Shown here: piece after piece, positions 17,387 through 23,185 of the stretch
Numbering within the stretch: the stretch's first letter is position 1
How the letters are laid out: each line of letters opens with the position of its first letter
Source: Lysobacterales bacterium
GTDB taxonomy: Bacteria; Pseudomonadota; Gammaproteobacteria; Xanthomonadales; SZUA-36
Assembly (NCBI GenBank): GCA_013001885.1
Contig: JABDLD010000062.1
Location: forward strand, 1-47,590
Reading direction: 5' to 3'
DNA length: 47,590 bases
Notes under the pieces: model-generated
What the model saw: the letters and a program-made list of their open reading frames with translations, nothing else
Told to the model about the DNA's origin: nothing
Databases searched by the model: none
Position numbers and translations under genes: made by a program

Positions 17387-17998
17387 TTAAACTTCCAGGC
17401 TGTCAAAAATTCGCGCTGCCCGGGACGCCGGGCGGGCCATCAGCCTGCGCATGTACGTTTCGAGTTTACCCTCAAACGGCAGCAGTTTCGCCTGCACGCC
17501 GAGCCGCAACACGTAAGCGGCGCAGATATCCGCCAATGTGAAATCGCCGCAGATATAGCCGGTATCCGGCAGGTCGCTGGCGAAGACGTTAATTCGTTTG
17601 CCCAACGGCCCTTCCAGCAATCCGGTCCATGTTTCGTCCATGAACCCGGCCCTGGAAAGATAATATTGCACCGCCGGAATTTCCAGGGAACTGGCGGAAA
17701 GGTTGATGGACTGCCAGAAATGATCGCGCACGGCCTGGTCTGAAGGAATCAGCGCGGCTTCCGGATGGCGTTCGGCGAGCGACAGGCAGATGGCTGTTGA
17801 CTCGATCAGGATTTTACCGTCCAGCTCGGCCGTGGGAATCTGTTCATAAGGATTCATCTGCCGGTAGGGATCAGACGCGTGCTCACCCAGATTGACCTTA
17901 ATCTCTTCGATCTCGTAACCCAGCTCGCACGCCGTCCAGCGAACCTTGCCGCTGCGGTCAACGTCTGCGAAGGACCATAGTTTGATCTTTCCTGTCAT
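17387..17998 (-). CDS. Glutathione S-transferase family protein
   Basis: 203 residues with the GST thioredoxin-fold N-domain (KIKLWSFADVDRSGKVRWTACELG, then NPYEQIPTAELDGKILIESTAIC, where the cis-Pro and the E-S pair bind glutathione) and a helical C-domain ending GDFTLADICAAYVLRLG. GSTs conjugate glutathione to electrophiles or reduce peroxides. It is the first gene of the minus-strand run that continues to the M28 peptidase, 48 bp upstream of the glutaredoxin-like start. RBS GGAAAG precedes the ATG. The substrate is not predictable. Confidence 0.87.
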   Translation of the reverse strand: MTGKIKLWSFADVDRSGKVRWTACELGYEIEEIKVNLGEHASDPYRQMNPYEQIPTAELDGKILIESTAICLSLAERHPEAALIPSDQAVRDHFWQSINLSASSLEIPAVQYYLSRAGFMDETWTGLLEGPLGKRINVFASDLPDTGYICGDFTLADICAAYVLRLGVQAKLLPFEGKLETYMRRLMARPASRAARIFDSLEV

Positions 17999-18076: not shown

Positions 18077-18457
18077 TTACTGTGTCGGCGACATTTTCCA
18101 GAGCCGGTTGCTCGTACATTCCGTCAGGTCTTCAAACATGTTTTCGAGCTCGCTGGCTGCATCGCTATCCAGCGCGGTTTGGGTCGCAGCCCAGGTGTTC
18201 AGGTCAGGATAGGTGTCCACGAACAGAAAAATCGTCTGGTCGCCCACGATGGATGTTCCAACGGCGCTTTCGATATTTTCGTTGACGTTGGCTCTCACCC
18301 ACTTCAGCCACGTGCTGTTGCGCGCCTGCAGATCTTCCACCTTTTTACCGTCCTTCAGCTCACAGGTGTAGGCGGCAACGACGGAATCGGCGAAAACAGA
18401 ACTGCTTGTGAAAGCAAAGGCCAGCGCGAATAATACGGACGATACAATTTTCTTCAT
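18077..18457 (-). CDS. Small exported protein, unknown
   Basis: The ATG at 18457 is supported by GAGGAG 8-12 nt upstream and a textbook signal peptide ([23 protein letters not shown]). The mature part is ~103 residues, acidic, with two cysteines (YTCELKDG and LTECTSNR) that could form a periplasmic disulphide. The pattern [17 protein letters not shown] suggests a compact alpha/beta, possibly ferredoxin-like, fold. I do not recognise a named family. It is divergent from the DUF885-like gene, 90 bp away. Confidence 0.75.
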
Positions 18458-18547
18458 GAAGATCTCCTCAGGTGTGTTTTTATCAAAGTGCCGCGGAAGT
18501 ATAGACGACATGGTTTTTTATTGCCGAGCAGGATAACGGGAACAGTC

Positions 18548-20158
18548 ATGACAAAGTTGCAACGGGCAGGCCTGCTGGCCACAGTGGTTTTCAGTATGAA
18601 TGTACAGGCGGAAGACGGCAGCTACGAGGACTTGCTGAGCCTGTTTGCCGATTGGCGGCAATTCGAGTCACCGCCCTTGCTCGACGGCGCTCCGGATTAC
18701 ACGGCCGCAACTTTCGACCGGCGCTACCGTGATTACCGGCAGATTCGGGCTCGTCTTGACGCTATCGACCCTTCCGCCTGGCCTGTTTCCCGGCAGGTGG
18801 ACTGGAATCTCGTGCGTGCCGAGATGAACGGTTTTGATTTCAATTACCGCGTGTTGAAGCCCTGGCAGCGGGACCCCGCATTCTATGAATCGATCTGGAT
18901 GGCGCGCAGCGATGTACCCGCCCATGAAGGGCCGACCCATCATGCGCTGACTGAAGTCTGGACCTACGAATTTCCGCTGAGCCCCGGTGAGCAGCAGCGC
19001 CTGCTGGATGATCTGAGCGTGATACCGCCGCTGATGAAACAGGCGCAGGTCAACCTGACCGGCAACGCCCGTGAACTGTGGATTACCGGAACGCGTAATA
19101 TCCGCCAGCAGCGCAGGAACCTCGACGAGCTGGAAGCACGGGTTGCCGGGTCCGGTAACGACGAGCTGCTGAAGTCGATCGCCGCCTGCAAGCTCGCTAC
19201 CGATGAACTGATTGCCTGGCTGGACCTCCAGGCCGCGTCCAAAACCGGTCCTTCCGGTATCGGCAAGGACAACTACAGCTGGTACCAGCAGAACGTGCAC
19301 CTGGTGCCGATGACCTGGGAGGACGAAGTGCGCCTCATGCAGCGCGAGTTGCACCGCGCCTGGTCCTCACTGAAGCTCGAGGAGCACCGTAACCGCAATT
19401 TACCGCCCATGCGGGCCGCTCGAAATGCCGAAGAGTACGACCTGATGGCGGACCGGGCCGCCAGCCGGTTCATGGCTTTCCTGGAACAGCAGGAAATCGT
19501 CACCGTGAAGGACTACTTTGAGCCCGCATTGCGTGAACACCTGGGTGAATTCGTGCCGGAAGAAACCCGCAATTTCTTCTGGATTACCGCCCACTACGAC
19601 CCGACTCCTCTATACACGCATTTCTGGCACTGGTTCGAGCTGGCCCGTATGGATAACGAACCGAACCCCAATCCAATCCGGCGTAACGCACTGCTGTACA
19701 ACATTTTTGACAGCGGTAATGAGGGAACCGCCACCGGGGTCGAGGAAATGTTTATGCATGCCGGCCTGTACGATGAAAGCCCGCGCTCGCGCGAATTGGT
19801 CTGGATCATGCTGGCGCAGCGCGCCGCCCGCGGACTGGGCTCGCTTTACGCGCATGCCAACGAGATGACGATGGAGGAAGCCGGTGTCATTCACGTGGAT
19901 TGGACACCCCGGGGCTGGATGAAGACGGAGAAAGAGCTGTTGATTTTTGAGCAACACTTTTATCTGCGCCAGCCGGGGTACGGAACCAGCTACGTCACGG
20001 GGAAGTACCTGCTGGAGCAGACGCTCGCTGATTACGCCCATTTGAAAGAGAAGCGCGGCGAGCCGTTTTCGCTGCGAAGGTTCTTTGATGAACTGAACGC
20101 AACCGACAGTATTCCCATTTCAATGTCGCGTTGGGAAATGACCGGAATCAAAGATTGA
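18548..20158 (+). CDS. DUF885-like secreted protein lacking the canonical metal motif
   Basis: I start at ATG 18548 ([21 protein letters not shown]), which gives a signal peptide; an in-frame start 60 nt upstream would bury it. About 536 residues. The overall plan matches DUF885 peptidase-like proteins: helical N-half, [13 protein letters not shown], and [27 protein letters not shown] near the end. Where canonical members have YHExxPGHHxQ and EGWALY, this protein reads [13 protein letters not shown] and [20 protein letters not shown]. It is either a divergent metalloenzyme or a non-catalytic relative. A canonical paralogue is at 43335-45209. Confidence 0.7.
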
Positions 20159-20238
20159 TGCCCCCGGGGGGCGTCCGTTTTGCTTGACCTGCGCGAACGG
20201 TTGCTTTTAAGTGGTCATAACGAACAACAGGCTGATCC

Positions 20239-20964
20239 ATGTCAACAGCAAGCTCAAAATTATCTCAAAAGTCGCTGAGTCCCAGGGTGATGCGGGAGAG
20301 CCGGGTCAAGCTGCTGCTGTTATGGGTGGCCGCCAGCGACGGTAGTCTCGATGATTCTGAGCTGGAATTTGTTGAGTCAAAGCTTCCCGATACCGGCGAG
20401 TCGCTCAAACTGGAAGATTTCTTGGCCGTCATCAGAAAACAGGACCTCGTTTTGCTGGGCGAGTCTGTCAAGTCAGTCGCAGCGGAGAGCAGGGCGCGCC
20501 GTTCGGCTTTCCTGGAAACGGCAATCACGCTGTCCCTGGCGGATCACGAATTCGCGGATGTGGAGAATCATATATTGCGGTTTTATGCCGATGCGCTTCA
20601 CCTCGGATTGGAAGTATTGGACCAGCGCTTTCAGAAAGTTGCCGGTCGTGGTCTACCTTCACCCGCTGGTTCTGCCGAAGCATCCGCGGATGAGCTTACA
20701 CACGCCACTCTGAAAACAATTGGTGCTTTAAGACATCAGTTGGAGCTTGATCCGGAAAGCTCATGGTTTGCGCAAAATTATCCCGATTACGTGGTTAAAA
20801 AGATTTTTACCGGGTCCGTGCATGAGCCGGCGGCTGTCAGCAGCGCAGTCCGTCCAAAAAAGTCCAGAAAGAGACTCGTTAAAAGTTCTAAGACAAACTA
20901 TATAATCTTCTTTCTAATAGTACTGATACTGATAATTTTCGCATACGTCATTAACCAGTTTTAG
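20239..20964 (+). CDS. TerB-like domain protein with C-terminal membrane anchor
   Basis: The 241-residue protein has a TerB/DjlA-like helical domain (~22-135) with the two acidic metal-binding-type loops VAASDGSLDDSELEFV and ITLSLADHEFADVENHIL. A linker, a basic stretch (KKSRKRLVKSSK) and a single hydrophobic helix at the extreme C-terminus (~218-238) make it tail-anchored with the TerB domain in the cytosol. TerB-like domains occur in tellurite/stress and phage-conflict systems. The next gene starts 18 bp downstream, so the pair is an operon. The metal binding and the partner are inferred. Confidence 0.7.
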   Translation: MSTASSKLSQKSLSPRVMRESRVKLLLLWVAASDGSLDDSELEFVESKLPDTGESLKLEDFLAVIRKQDLVLLGESVKSVAAESRARRSAFLETAITLSLADHEFADVENHILRFYADALHLGLEVLDQRFQKVAGRGLPSPAGSAEASADELTHATLKTIGALRHQLELDPESSWFAQNYPDYVVKKIFTGSVHEPAAVSSAVRPKKSRKRLVKSSKTNYIIFFLIVLILIIFAYVINQF

Positions 20965-20981
20965 ATTCTGCCGCCGCCATA

Positions 20982-22472
20982 ATGACCAGGCTTTCAAAAT
21001 CCCGGATCATGTCGTCGCTGCAGTGTCTGAAGCGTGTTTACCTGGAAGTCAATCGAAGGGAATTGGCCCGCTATTCCAAGGCGACCGAGGCTGCCTTTGC
21101 CCTGGGACATGAAGTCGGCAATCTCGCGATTCGGCTCTATGGCGACAGCAGGGGCGTTTTTATTCCTTATAACGGCGGCAGTTTCACCGGAGCGCTCGCG
21201 CAAACAGAAGAATTAATGACCTCGATGTTCCGTGCCCCGGTATTTGAAGCCACTCTGCAGTTTGAGGGCGTGCTGGTTCGCGAGGATGTGCTGTTGCCGG
21301 TGACGGGCGATGAAGGTGACAGCTGGCGCGTAGTGGAAGTCAAGGCGTCAACCCGGGTGAAACCCGAGCACGTGCACGATTGCGCTGTGCAGGCCTGGGT
21401 GCACCAGGGAGCTGGTTTTCCTCTGCAAAGTATTGCCCTGGCCCACGTAGACAAACAGTTTGTGTATCAGGGCGGTGGCGACTACGGCGGTCTGTTCATT
21501 GAAAACGACCTTACGGAGCCGGTTAACGAACTGATGCCGGCGGTGCCGGTTTGGGTCGATCGGGCCCGTGAGGCGGCGGAAGGGCCGATGCCGCAGGTGG
21601 CGGTCGGCCAGCACTGCACCAGTCCGTATCAATGCCCTTTTATTGCATACTGCTGGCCTCATGATTCGGACTATCCCGTTTCGGGACTCGGAGGAGGACG
21701 CAAAAAGCTCGGCCTCTGGGTGGTCGACGGCTACCGCGACATCCGCGACGTGCCTTCATCGGATATTACCAGTGAGGTCCAGCTGAGGATTCACCGCGTG
21801 ACCATGACGGGCGAACCGGAACTGCTTTCCGGAGCGCGGGAATTTGTCAAAGCACTCGACTATCCCCGCTTTTACCTGGATTTCGAGACCATCGGCCCGG
21901 CGATCCCCGTATGGCCGGGCACCCGGCCATACCAGGTCCTGCCCTTCCAGTGGTCCTGCCACATCGAGCGGGCGCCGGGCGTAATGGAGCATGCAGAGTT
22001 CCTGGACCTCTCGGGCGATCCGCCGATGCGAGCTCTTGCGGAGCAGTTGATCGAGACGCTGAAACCGGAAGGCCCGGTCCTGATGTACACCGATTACGAG
22101 CGCACCGTGATCAAAAGTCTCACCTCTATGTTTCCTGATCTGGCGGAATCGTTGCAAGGCATTATTGAACGGCTGGTCGATCTGCACCCCGTCACGAAGA
22201 TCAACTACTACCACCCGGACATGCTGGGCTCCTGGTCGATCAAGGCGGTGCTGCCAACCATTGCCCCGGACATGGACTACGCCGGCCTCGAGGGAATTCA
22301 GGAGGGCACGGCCGCATCGGTGGCTTACCTGGAGGCAATCAATCCCGCTACTTCACAGCAGCGCAAGGAAGAAATCCGCCGGGAACTGCTGGAATACTGC
22401 AAGTACGATACCGAGGCGATGGTGCGGCTGGCGGCCTTTTTCACGACCACGCCCCCGACAGATTCCGGTTGA
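20982..22472 (+). CDS. Cas4-like Fe-S nuclease fused to DnaQ-like exonuclease (DUF2779 family)
   Basis: 496 residues. The N-half has a Cas4/RecB-type PD-(D/E)xK nuclease: His43, Asp102, Glu119-x-Lys121 in WRVVEVKAST, a downstream QAWVH, and four cysteines in the Cas4/AddB iron-sulphur arrangement (Cys15, then Cys212, Cys218, Cys224). The C-half is RNase-H/DnaQ-like: YLDFET (Asp300, Glu302), a middle region with MYTDYERTVIK, and a late YCKYDTEAMVRL typical of a DEDDy exonuclease. It should degrade or process DNA in the cytosol. It is probably cotranscribed with the TerB-like membrane protein. The family is known as DUF2779; its cellular role is not established to my knowledge. Confidence 0.82.
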   Translation: MTRLSKSRIMSSLQCLKRVYLEVNRRELARYSKATEAAFALGHEVGNLAIRLYGDSRGVFIPYNGGSFTGALAQTEELMTSMFRAPVFEATLQFEGVLVREDVLLPVTGDEGDSWRVVEVKASTRVKPEHVHDCAVQAWVHQGAGFPLQSIALAHVDKQFVYQGGGDYGGLFIENDLTEPVNELMPAVPVWVDRAREAAEGPMPQVAVGQHCTSPYQCPFIAYCWPHDSDYPVSGLGGGRKKLGLWVVDGYRDIRDVPSSDITSEVQLRIHRVTMTGEPELLSGAREFVKALDYPRFYLDFETIGPAIPVWPGTRPYQVLPFQWSCHIERAPGVMEHAEFLDLSGDPPMRALAEQLIETLKPEGPVLMYTDYERTVIKSLTSMFPDLAESLQGIIERLVDLHPVTKINYYHPDMLGSWSIKAVLPTIAPDMDYAGLEGIQEGTAASVAYLEAINPATSQQRKEEIRRELLEYCKYDTEAMVRLAAFFTTTPPTDSG

Positions 22473-22540
22473 TCATTTCGATTCAAAAGTTTGCCTGAGT
22501 GACAAATTCCACTCCGGTCTCTATCAGCCAGTCTGGTGGC

Positions 22541-23185
22541 TCATCTCCGTACCGCATCCGGGGGCAGGATCCGGGACTGTTCGGCAATATCCCTGACAAA
22601 CCGCAGGATCTGCTTCGATGAGTAAAGCCGTGCCGGCTCGAGCTGGCCTTCGTTGGTGGTCCCGATCACGTTGCCTTCCGGGTCGAAGAAGATGGCCACC
22701 GGGATACCCCGCGAAAGCGAAACGCCGAGCTCGGTTGCGAGATCGGCATTCTTGTTGAACTTGCCTACATCCACGTTGGCGAAATGGAACAGCTCGGCGG
22801 TATACGCCTCCACTTCTTCGCTTTTGAGCTGGCGATGCAGGTTTCGACAATCCATGCACCAGTTGGCGCCAAACGTTACCATCAGGAATCGGTCGTCGTT
22901 CAGCGCTTCATTTCGGGCTGAGGCGACCTCCGATCGGGCGTCGGCGAACTCGTCGTAAGGCAAGGGATTGCCTTCCATTTTTGATTCGAACAGCCAGCGG
23001 GGTTTGAACAGGTCCTCGGTTAATTCGAGATTTTCCGCCTGCAGTTTCGCTACAAGGTCTTTTTGCTGCTGCAGGCTTTCCTGCTCCACTACGGAGTAAC
23101 CGCTGACCCAAAGCGCCGCGTGATAGGACAGCAGGCCCGCAAGCAGGCCACCAACAAACCACGCCCTTGAACTGTACTTGAACAT
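22541..23185 (-). CDS. Membrane-anchored thioredoxin-like protein
   Basis: 214 residues with one N-terminal membrane helix (8-30), a heptad-like coiled coil (~33-58) and a thioredoxin fold with TFGANWCMDCRNLH (Cys110, Cys113) and the cis-Pro motif SRGIPVAIFFDPEG. The W-C-x-D-C site resembles the DsbD C-terminal domain and related periplasmic reductases. It should act in the periplasm, tethered to the inner membrane, in thiol reduction or metalloprotein maturation. It is divergent from the receiver-like/barrel pair, 147 bp away, and convergent with the double nuclease gene. Confidence 0.8.
   Translation of the reverse strand: MFKYSSRAWFVGGLLAGLLSYHAALWVSGYSVVEQESLQQQKDLVAKLQAENLELTEDLFKPRWLFESKMEGNPLPYDEFADARSEVASARNEALNDDRFLMVTFGANWCMDCRNLHRQLKSEEVEAYTAELFHFANVDVGKFNKNADLATELGVSLSRGIPVAIFFDPEGNVIGTTNEGQLEPARLYSSKQILRFVRDIAEQSRILPPDAVRR

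Follow-up and report, generated by a model that had tools for sequence, protein, structure and literature searches.

A membrane-anchored TerB-like protein and a Cas4–PolB-type DUF2779 nuclease as probable chance neighbours in a Lysobacterales bacterium

Do a membrane-anchored TerB-like protein and the two-domain nuclease encoded directly downstream of it form a functional unit, or do the two genes simply happen to be adjacent? The question was addressed for a gene pair in a Lysobacterales bacterium (assembly GCA_013001885.1, contig JABDLD010000062.1), where the whole 47,590-nucleotide stretch analysed is referred to as the window. A first-pass annotation had proposed that the two proteins could be a membrane-proximal unit that degrades DNA in defence or repair. 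Such a joint unit is not supported by the present analysis. The pair probably consists of two independent genes that became neighbours by chance in one lineage, namely a stand-alone DUF2779 nuclease and a degenerate relative of TerB/J proteins that has no J-domain. Features of the locus are collected in Table 1.

Table 1. Positions in the window of the gene pair, its parts and its surroundings
Feature	Position	Strand	Remarks
Four-gene stretch	18077..22472		18077-18511 (-), 18488/18548-20158 (+, DUF885), TerB-like, DUF2779
Terminator-like hairpin	20157..20175	+	between DUF885 and TerB-like genes; from a consensus scan alone
TerB-like protein gene	20239..20964	+	241 aa; ORF; C-terminal membrane anchor
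C-terminal part of TerB-like protein	20692..20961	+	residues 152-241; resembles the second, J-like gene of G018/G006, not their TerB gene
Predicted transmembrane segment	20896..20955	+	residues 220-239; Kyte-Doolittle mean 2.92 over 19 residues
DUF2779 nuclease gene	20982..22472	+	496 aa; ORF
Cas4/RecB-like PD-(D/E)xK domain, four Cys	20982..21665	+	residues 1-228 (about)
PolB-type 3'-5' exonuclease domain	21858..22451	+	residues 293-490 (about)

Both open reading frames lie on the forward strand where the first-pass annotation had placed them, and the gap between them, given there as 18 bp, was counted as 17 bases (20965-20981). A codon-usage gene caller also picked both genes, with a later start for the TerB-like one at 20287. 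The annotation had taken the short gap to tie the nuclease to the TerB-like gene. Gaps of 20 bp or less are commonplace, however: among adjacent genes on the same strand they separate 192 of 532 pairs at the comparison loci and 8 of 19 in the window. The gap was rejected as evidence of coupling on this baseline. Judging from the shared strand, the 17-bp gap and the terminator-like site upstream, the two genes are likely co-transcribed in this genome; the number of terminator-like sites in positions 20000-22700 (4, compared to 2.9 in shuffled sequences) is not above chance. By eye, 20965-20981 has no Shine-Dalgarno-like AGGAG directly 5' of the DUF2779 ATG, which leaves translational coupling or a different start site as possibilities.

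The nuclease belongs to a known but uncharacterised family and is well conserved; its match to DUF2779 (PF11074) scored 135.4 bits at a cut-off of 23.3 and covers profile positions 1-126 of 126 and residues 297-419. An AF2 model built from 78 sequences had a mean pLDDT of 95.6, and its best Foldseek match among solved structures was Cas4 (8d3l, E 5.1e-5), followed by human MGME1, RecE and AddB. Residues 1-228 were aligned to the Cas4-Cas1 structure 7mi4_A over 179 residues (Z 14.6, 3.0 A; VIA-align), while residues 293-490 were aligned to 8g99_A over 170 residues (Z 14.9, 2.6 A) and to 1qht, the exonuclease region of a family-B DNA polymerase, over 166 residues (Z 14.7, 3.3 A). Conservation was read from an alignment of 78 DUF2779 relatives, from which 9 of the 87 loci surveyed were omitted, their DUF2779 gene being incomplete or fused or having escaped the gene caller. 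Residues C15, C212, C218, C224, D102, E119 and K121 of the N-terminal domain are invariant or nearly so in this alignment (77 or 78 of 78), as are D300, E302, Y472 and D476 of the exonuclease domain. Together, fold matches and residues bear out the earlier description of a four-cysteine PD-(D/E)xK domain joined to an exonuclease domain, and the model points to a Cas4/RecB-type PD-(D/E)XK fold that carries a D-(D/E)xK motif and four cysteines predicted to hold an Fe-S cluster.

The exonuclease domain had been described as DEDDy-type and DnaQ-like. Of the residues that the first label calls for, D300, E302, D476 and Y472 are kept. In the usual naming of exonuclease motifs, however, motif II of DEDD enzymes carries Asp, and all 78 relatives have Glu at this position (E373, placed by sequence pattern), which gives DUF2779 a D-E-E-D plus Tyr pattern. 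As for the second label, PolB-type is closer than DnaQ-like, the best structure matches being exonuclease domains of family-B polymerases (Z about 14-15). Compared to the orthologue in a genome of the same genus (G004), the nuclease gene gave a dN of 0.17 and a dS of 1.56 (dN/dS about 0.11 by NG86, with dS near saturation), consistent with purifying selection. We infer cutting and trimming of DNA, along with its polarity, from these likenesses; the enzyme would most likely use two-metal active sites to cut and trim DNA ends that are frayed or single-stranded.

This two-domain architecture is already published. The passages of PMC3985635 that were available assign PF11074 to family F.17 of the RNase H-like superfamily, with predicted 3'-5' exonuclease activity, and report that it is accompanied by a DUF83 domain resembling PD-(D/E)XK nucleases. 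The domain make-up of the window nuclease is no different from that family as described there, and the Glu at motif II, found throughout the alignment, is not mentioned in the same passages. They also attribute an analogous two-domain layout to the TM0106/COG2251 RecB-like nucleases (TIGR03491), for which the window nuclease scored 20.8 bits at its C-terminal end, below the NCBIfam cut-off of 97.45. Cas4, RecB-AddB and MGME1-type nucleases share the fold of residues 1-228 and the pattern of four cysteines and D-ExK, but differ from the window nuclease in that the latter is fused to an exonuclease domain. Likewise, the 3'-5' exonuclease of family-B DNA polymerases shares the fold of residues 293-490 and the DxE and YxxxD motifs, whereas the DUF2779 version ends motif II in Glu, stands behind a Cas4-like domain and comes without a polymerase domain. 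The window nuclease did not qualify as a CRISPR Cas4, as the PADLOC Cas4 model matched at only E 0.026 and 13 bits, and no cas genes were recognised among the ten genes flanking the pair. Cas4 was the only PADLOC protein model to match the nuclease, none matched the TerB-like protein at E <= 1, and no PADLOC model was matched at E <= 0.001 by any of ten genes surrounding the pair.

The earlier proposal had called for a neighbourhood survey of DUF2779 genes for TerB partners. Of 61 related genomes, 14 carry DUF2779, and of the 45 good ones 10 do; the window's family accounts for 11 of the 14. Loci from the related genomes were combined with those of a contig scan, in which 99 were confirmed and the 80 most similar to the window copy kept, and removal of 7 duplicates left 87. 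A TerB profile built from 28 of 30 domains (L150 and L165 were dropped for stops in translation) was run on all called genes and placed TerB beside DUF2779 at one of the 87 loci, the window itself; a TerB gene that is highly divergent or was overlooked by the gene caller would go undetected. The 622 proteins encoded in the neighbourhood of DUF2779 at 85 loci likewise included a single TerB, the window's own, while in one genome (G018) the upstream side of DUF2779 ends at a contig end. The association thus did not recur across genomes. The nuclease of the same-genus genome G004 is 76% identical to the window copy and follows an MscS-like gene (PF00924, 39.1 bits) at a distance of 18 bp. More generally, DUF2779 in the window's family has neighbours that resemble household genes (11 loci), and the gene adjoining it at four of these loci (L018, L020, L021 and L025) is one that we take to be ABC-transporter-like.

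The four-gene stretch that holds the pair is absent from the GST-thioredoxin junction of G004, where the orthologues of 17387-17998 and 22541-23185 lie 22 bp apart. Elsewhere the neighbour on the thioredoxin side is a helicase gene (G002) or an unrelated gene (G015). As this junction varies, an insertion is indistinguishable from loss or rearrangement of the four-gene block, and a clean insertion in the window is not claimed.

The TerB-like protein matched the Pfam TerB family (PF05099) weakly but above the cut-off of 24.4, at 27.4 bits in one search and 28.9 in another. Its AF2 model, from four sequences and with a mean pLDDT of 78.3, has a helical domain that extends to about residue 135 and a separate helix at 152-167, which a linker of low confidence connects to the C-terminal helix at 215-240. 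The best Foldseek matches were the TerB-type structures 2h5n and 2ou3, at probabilities of 0.99-1.00 but E values of 0.12-0.32. No hydropathy window above 1.6 other than the C-terminal segment starts before residue 205. The description of this protein as a membrane-anchored TerB domain is in line with the Pfam score and the single hydrophobic segment at its C-terminus.

Relatives of this TerB protein were found in 3 of 39 genomes of the family and 4 of 398 of the order, with the window genome counted. They occur in G006, G018 and G332, with no DUF2779 alongside in the stretches read, and in each a small J-like second gene follows the TerB gene. TerB and J-like genes are separate in G018 and G006, and the window protein corresponds to parts of both. 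Residues 1-144 match the TerB gene of these two genomes, while residues 152-234 match the second gene of G018 (G018:C124; 37%, E 3.5e-10) and residues 151-199 that of G006 (G006:C168; 41%, E 6.4e-7). By eye, these second genes have a J-domain-like start and a hydrophobic segment at the end; the DnaJ profile gave only E 0.025 on that of G018 and no match on that of G006. The G332 copy has a TerB-like region that scores below the cut-off (21.9 bits) and then, in the same frame, a DnaJ domain of 38.7 bits (cut-off 27.8) with HPD; the DnaJ match in G006 stays below threshold at 19.9 bits, and the HPD there is lost. The window protein itself has no DnaJ match at E <= 1, and the NCBIfam DjlA model scored 11.9 bits against a cut-off of 162. 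It resembles DjlA-type co-chaperones (PF05099 plus PF00226) in its TerB domain and membrane anchoring, and the G332 relative combines a TerB-like region with DnaJ; it differs from them in having no DnaJ match and in that its anchor is C-terminal.

These comparisons suggest that the TerB-like protein is a collapsed, J-less remnant of a TerB/J co-chaperone-like module. The TerB domain would have fused with the J-like partner's tail and anchor and the J-domain would have been lost, leaving a protein of putative co-chaperone ancestry to which no role on DNA is ascribed; the direction of this fusion rests on three TerB relatives, two of them from incomplete genomes (G006 65% and G018 77% complete). 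At L136:6733-8182, in a related family, a TerB-like/J-domain gene overlaps a second small J-like gene; the two may be a co-chaperone-like module that is so far undescribed. The TerB partnership was rejected on the neighbourhood survey, the searches of family and order and the same-genus G004 locus. The proposal of a unit gave way on the same grounds, and functional coupling between the two proteins appears to be absent.

The neighbourhoods of DUF2779 outside the window's clade are of a different kind. A WYL regulator lies within 6 kb of DUF2779 at 43 of the 87 loci, in 18 cases within 200 bp and in 32 on the same strand. WYL genes were counted on six-frame ORFs, as the gene caller missed DUF2779 at L020 and L090 and placed shadow ORFs over WYL genes at L016 and L048. 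About 0.46 such loci would be expected, an estimate derived from 72 matches, those beside DUF2779 included, in about 121.6 Mb of 34 hand-picked genomes from the set, with WYL models that differ between the two counts. An AAA ATPase of one cluster occurs at 17 of the 87 loci and a 5'-nucleotidase at 7. In the window's own family the 11 loci yielded no WYL, AAA or 5'-nucleotidase of these families; nine of the 11 form one supported clade in a quick tree with the window next to G004. DUF2779 was also detected in 30 of 72,556 plasmid records and, with 14% of the query covered, in 2 of 50,697 phage records. Out of eight plasmid records viewed, WYL is annotated in four (H1, H6, H7 and H13) and 5'-nucleotidase in two (H7 and H9), while H5, H8 and H15 have neither; gene orders include AAA-type ATP-binding protein - DUF2779 - WYL and PD-(D/E)XK - DUF2779 - WYL.

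Several individual arrangements were observed in the course of the survey. At L054 DUF2779 is fused to a 5'-nucleotidase in one 806-aa frame; the gene directly 3' of DUF2779 at L067, L068 and L070 encodes a 5'-nucleotidase (PADLOC candidate PDC-S08). A 920-aa frame at L087 has about 420 extra residues of unknown kind after DUF2779. A protein with an FtsK-gamma winged helix and an FtsZ/tubulin-like GTPase (L082:11627-12784, L084, L097 and L108) is encoded within five genes of DUF2779 at 4 of 85 loci. About 9 kb of the Sphingobium yanoikuyae plasmid p-A-Sy (L173) hold DUF2779, a TM0106-type nuclease, two WYL genes, a 5'-nucleotidase and a PD-(D/E)XK gene.

Distance matrices of WYL and DUF2779 were correlated across 39 loci (r = 0.475, p 0.0005). 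The correlation was r = 0.116 (p 0.17) for 15 adjacent same-strand pairs, compared to r = 0.544 (p 0.0005) for 17 loci at which WYL lies more than 1 kb from DUF2779. Adjacent WYL genes accordingly do not co-diverge with the nuclease, and the remaining signal reflects shared descent of the islands; the result for the adjacent pairs counts against WYL as an obligate cognate partner in a fixed WYL-DUF2779 pair. When WYL was compared with AAA along the tree by independent pairs, the informative pairs were too few (median p 0.25).

Alternatives to chance adjacency were weighed against these results. If the pair were a genuine operon specific to this lineage, the tail-anchored TerB protein would recruit the nuclease to the inner membrane, where incoming DNA is degraded. 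The shared strand and 17-bp gap, the predicted anchor on the TerB-like protein and purifying selection on the nuclease fit this arrangement, but pairing at a single locus, other DUF2779 neighbours in the same genus and family, the commonness of such gaps, the want of a PADLOC match among the ten flanking genes and of any TerB-DUF2779 fusion among those seen make it very unlikely. That the TerB-like protein belongs to a Ter/stress system or a Shango-like TerB defence system is extremely improbable. Its TerB domain scores above the Pfam cut-off and some described defence systems contain TerB domains; yet TerB domains are widespread (56 of 61 related genomes), the PADLOC search with this protein was negative, no other Ter or defence protein was recognised among the ten surrounding genes and its own relatives are linked to J-like genes.

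A third alternative, in which the TerB-like gene is irrelevant, holds that DUF2779 of the window's clade is a solitary anti-phage effector derived from the WYL-linked versions in defence islands. The excess of WYL genes and the AAA ATPase and 5'-nucleotidase neighbours speak for this origin, as do the patchy presence of DUF2779 among relatives and its varied locations within the family. Patchiness fits gene loss and incomplete genomes too, however, and none of the three partners, but household-like neighbours, are found at the 11 family loci, leaving this reading possible though doubtful. According to the part of PMC9122601 that was consulted, WYL regulators co-localise with phage defence systems, and the literature passages at hand propose no defence role for DUF2779. 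The earlier defence reading survives only at the level of the family, as a defence-like neighbourhood in other clades, and not as a TerB-nuclease unit in the window. We tentatively suggest, as a minority view, that DUF2779 may serve as the nuclease in a WYL-regulated defence module, as yet undescribed, in which DNA would be degraded to mononucleotides that are then dephosphorylated, the window copy being a solitary derivative in a household context. Examples of such a module are AAA ATPase - DUF2779 - WYL on Diaphorobacter and Rhodoferax plasmids and PD-(D/E)XK - DUF2779 with WYL or 5'-nucleotidase on Arcobacter-type plasmids, together with the single fusion of DUF2779 to a 5'-nucleotidase.

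Chance adjacency of two independent genes thus remains the preferred reading, and in the window lineage the nuclease would work by itself, either in repair or as a lone guard enzyme. For the window itself, removal of a plausible-looking TerB-nuclease defence unit has little consequence. The part worth following is the strong DUF2779-WYL link outside the window's clade. If that link reflects function, it would turn a predicted Cas4-PolB-exonuclease fusion into a testable defence effector.
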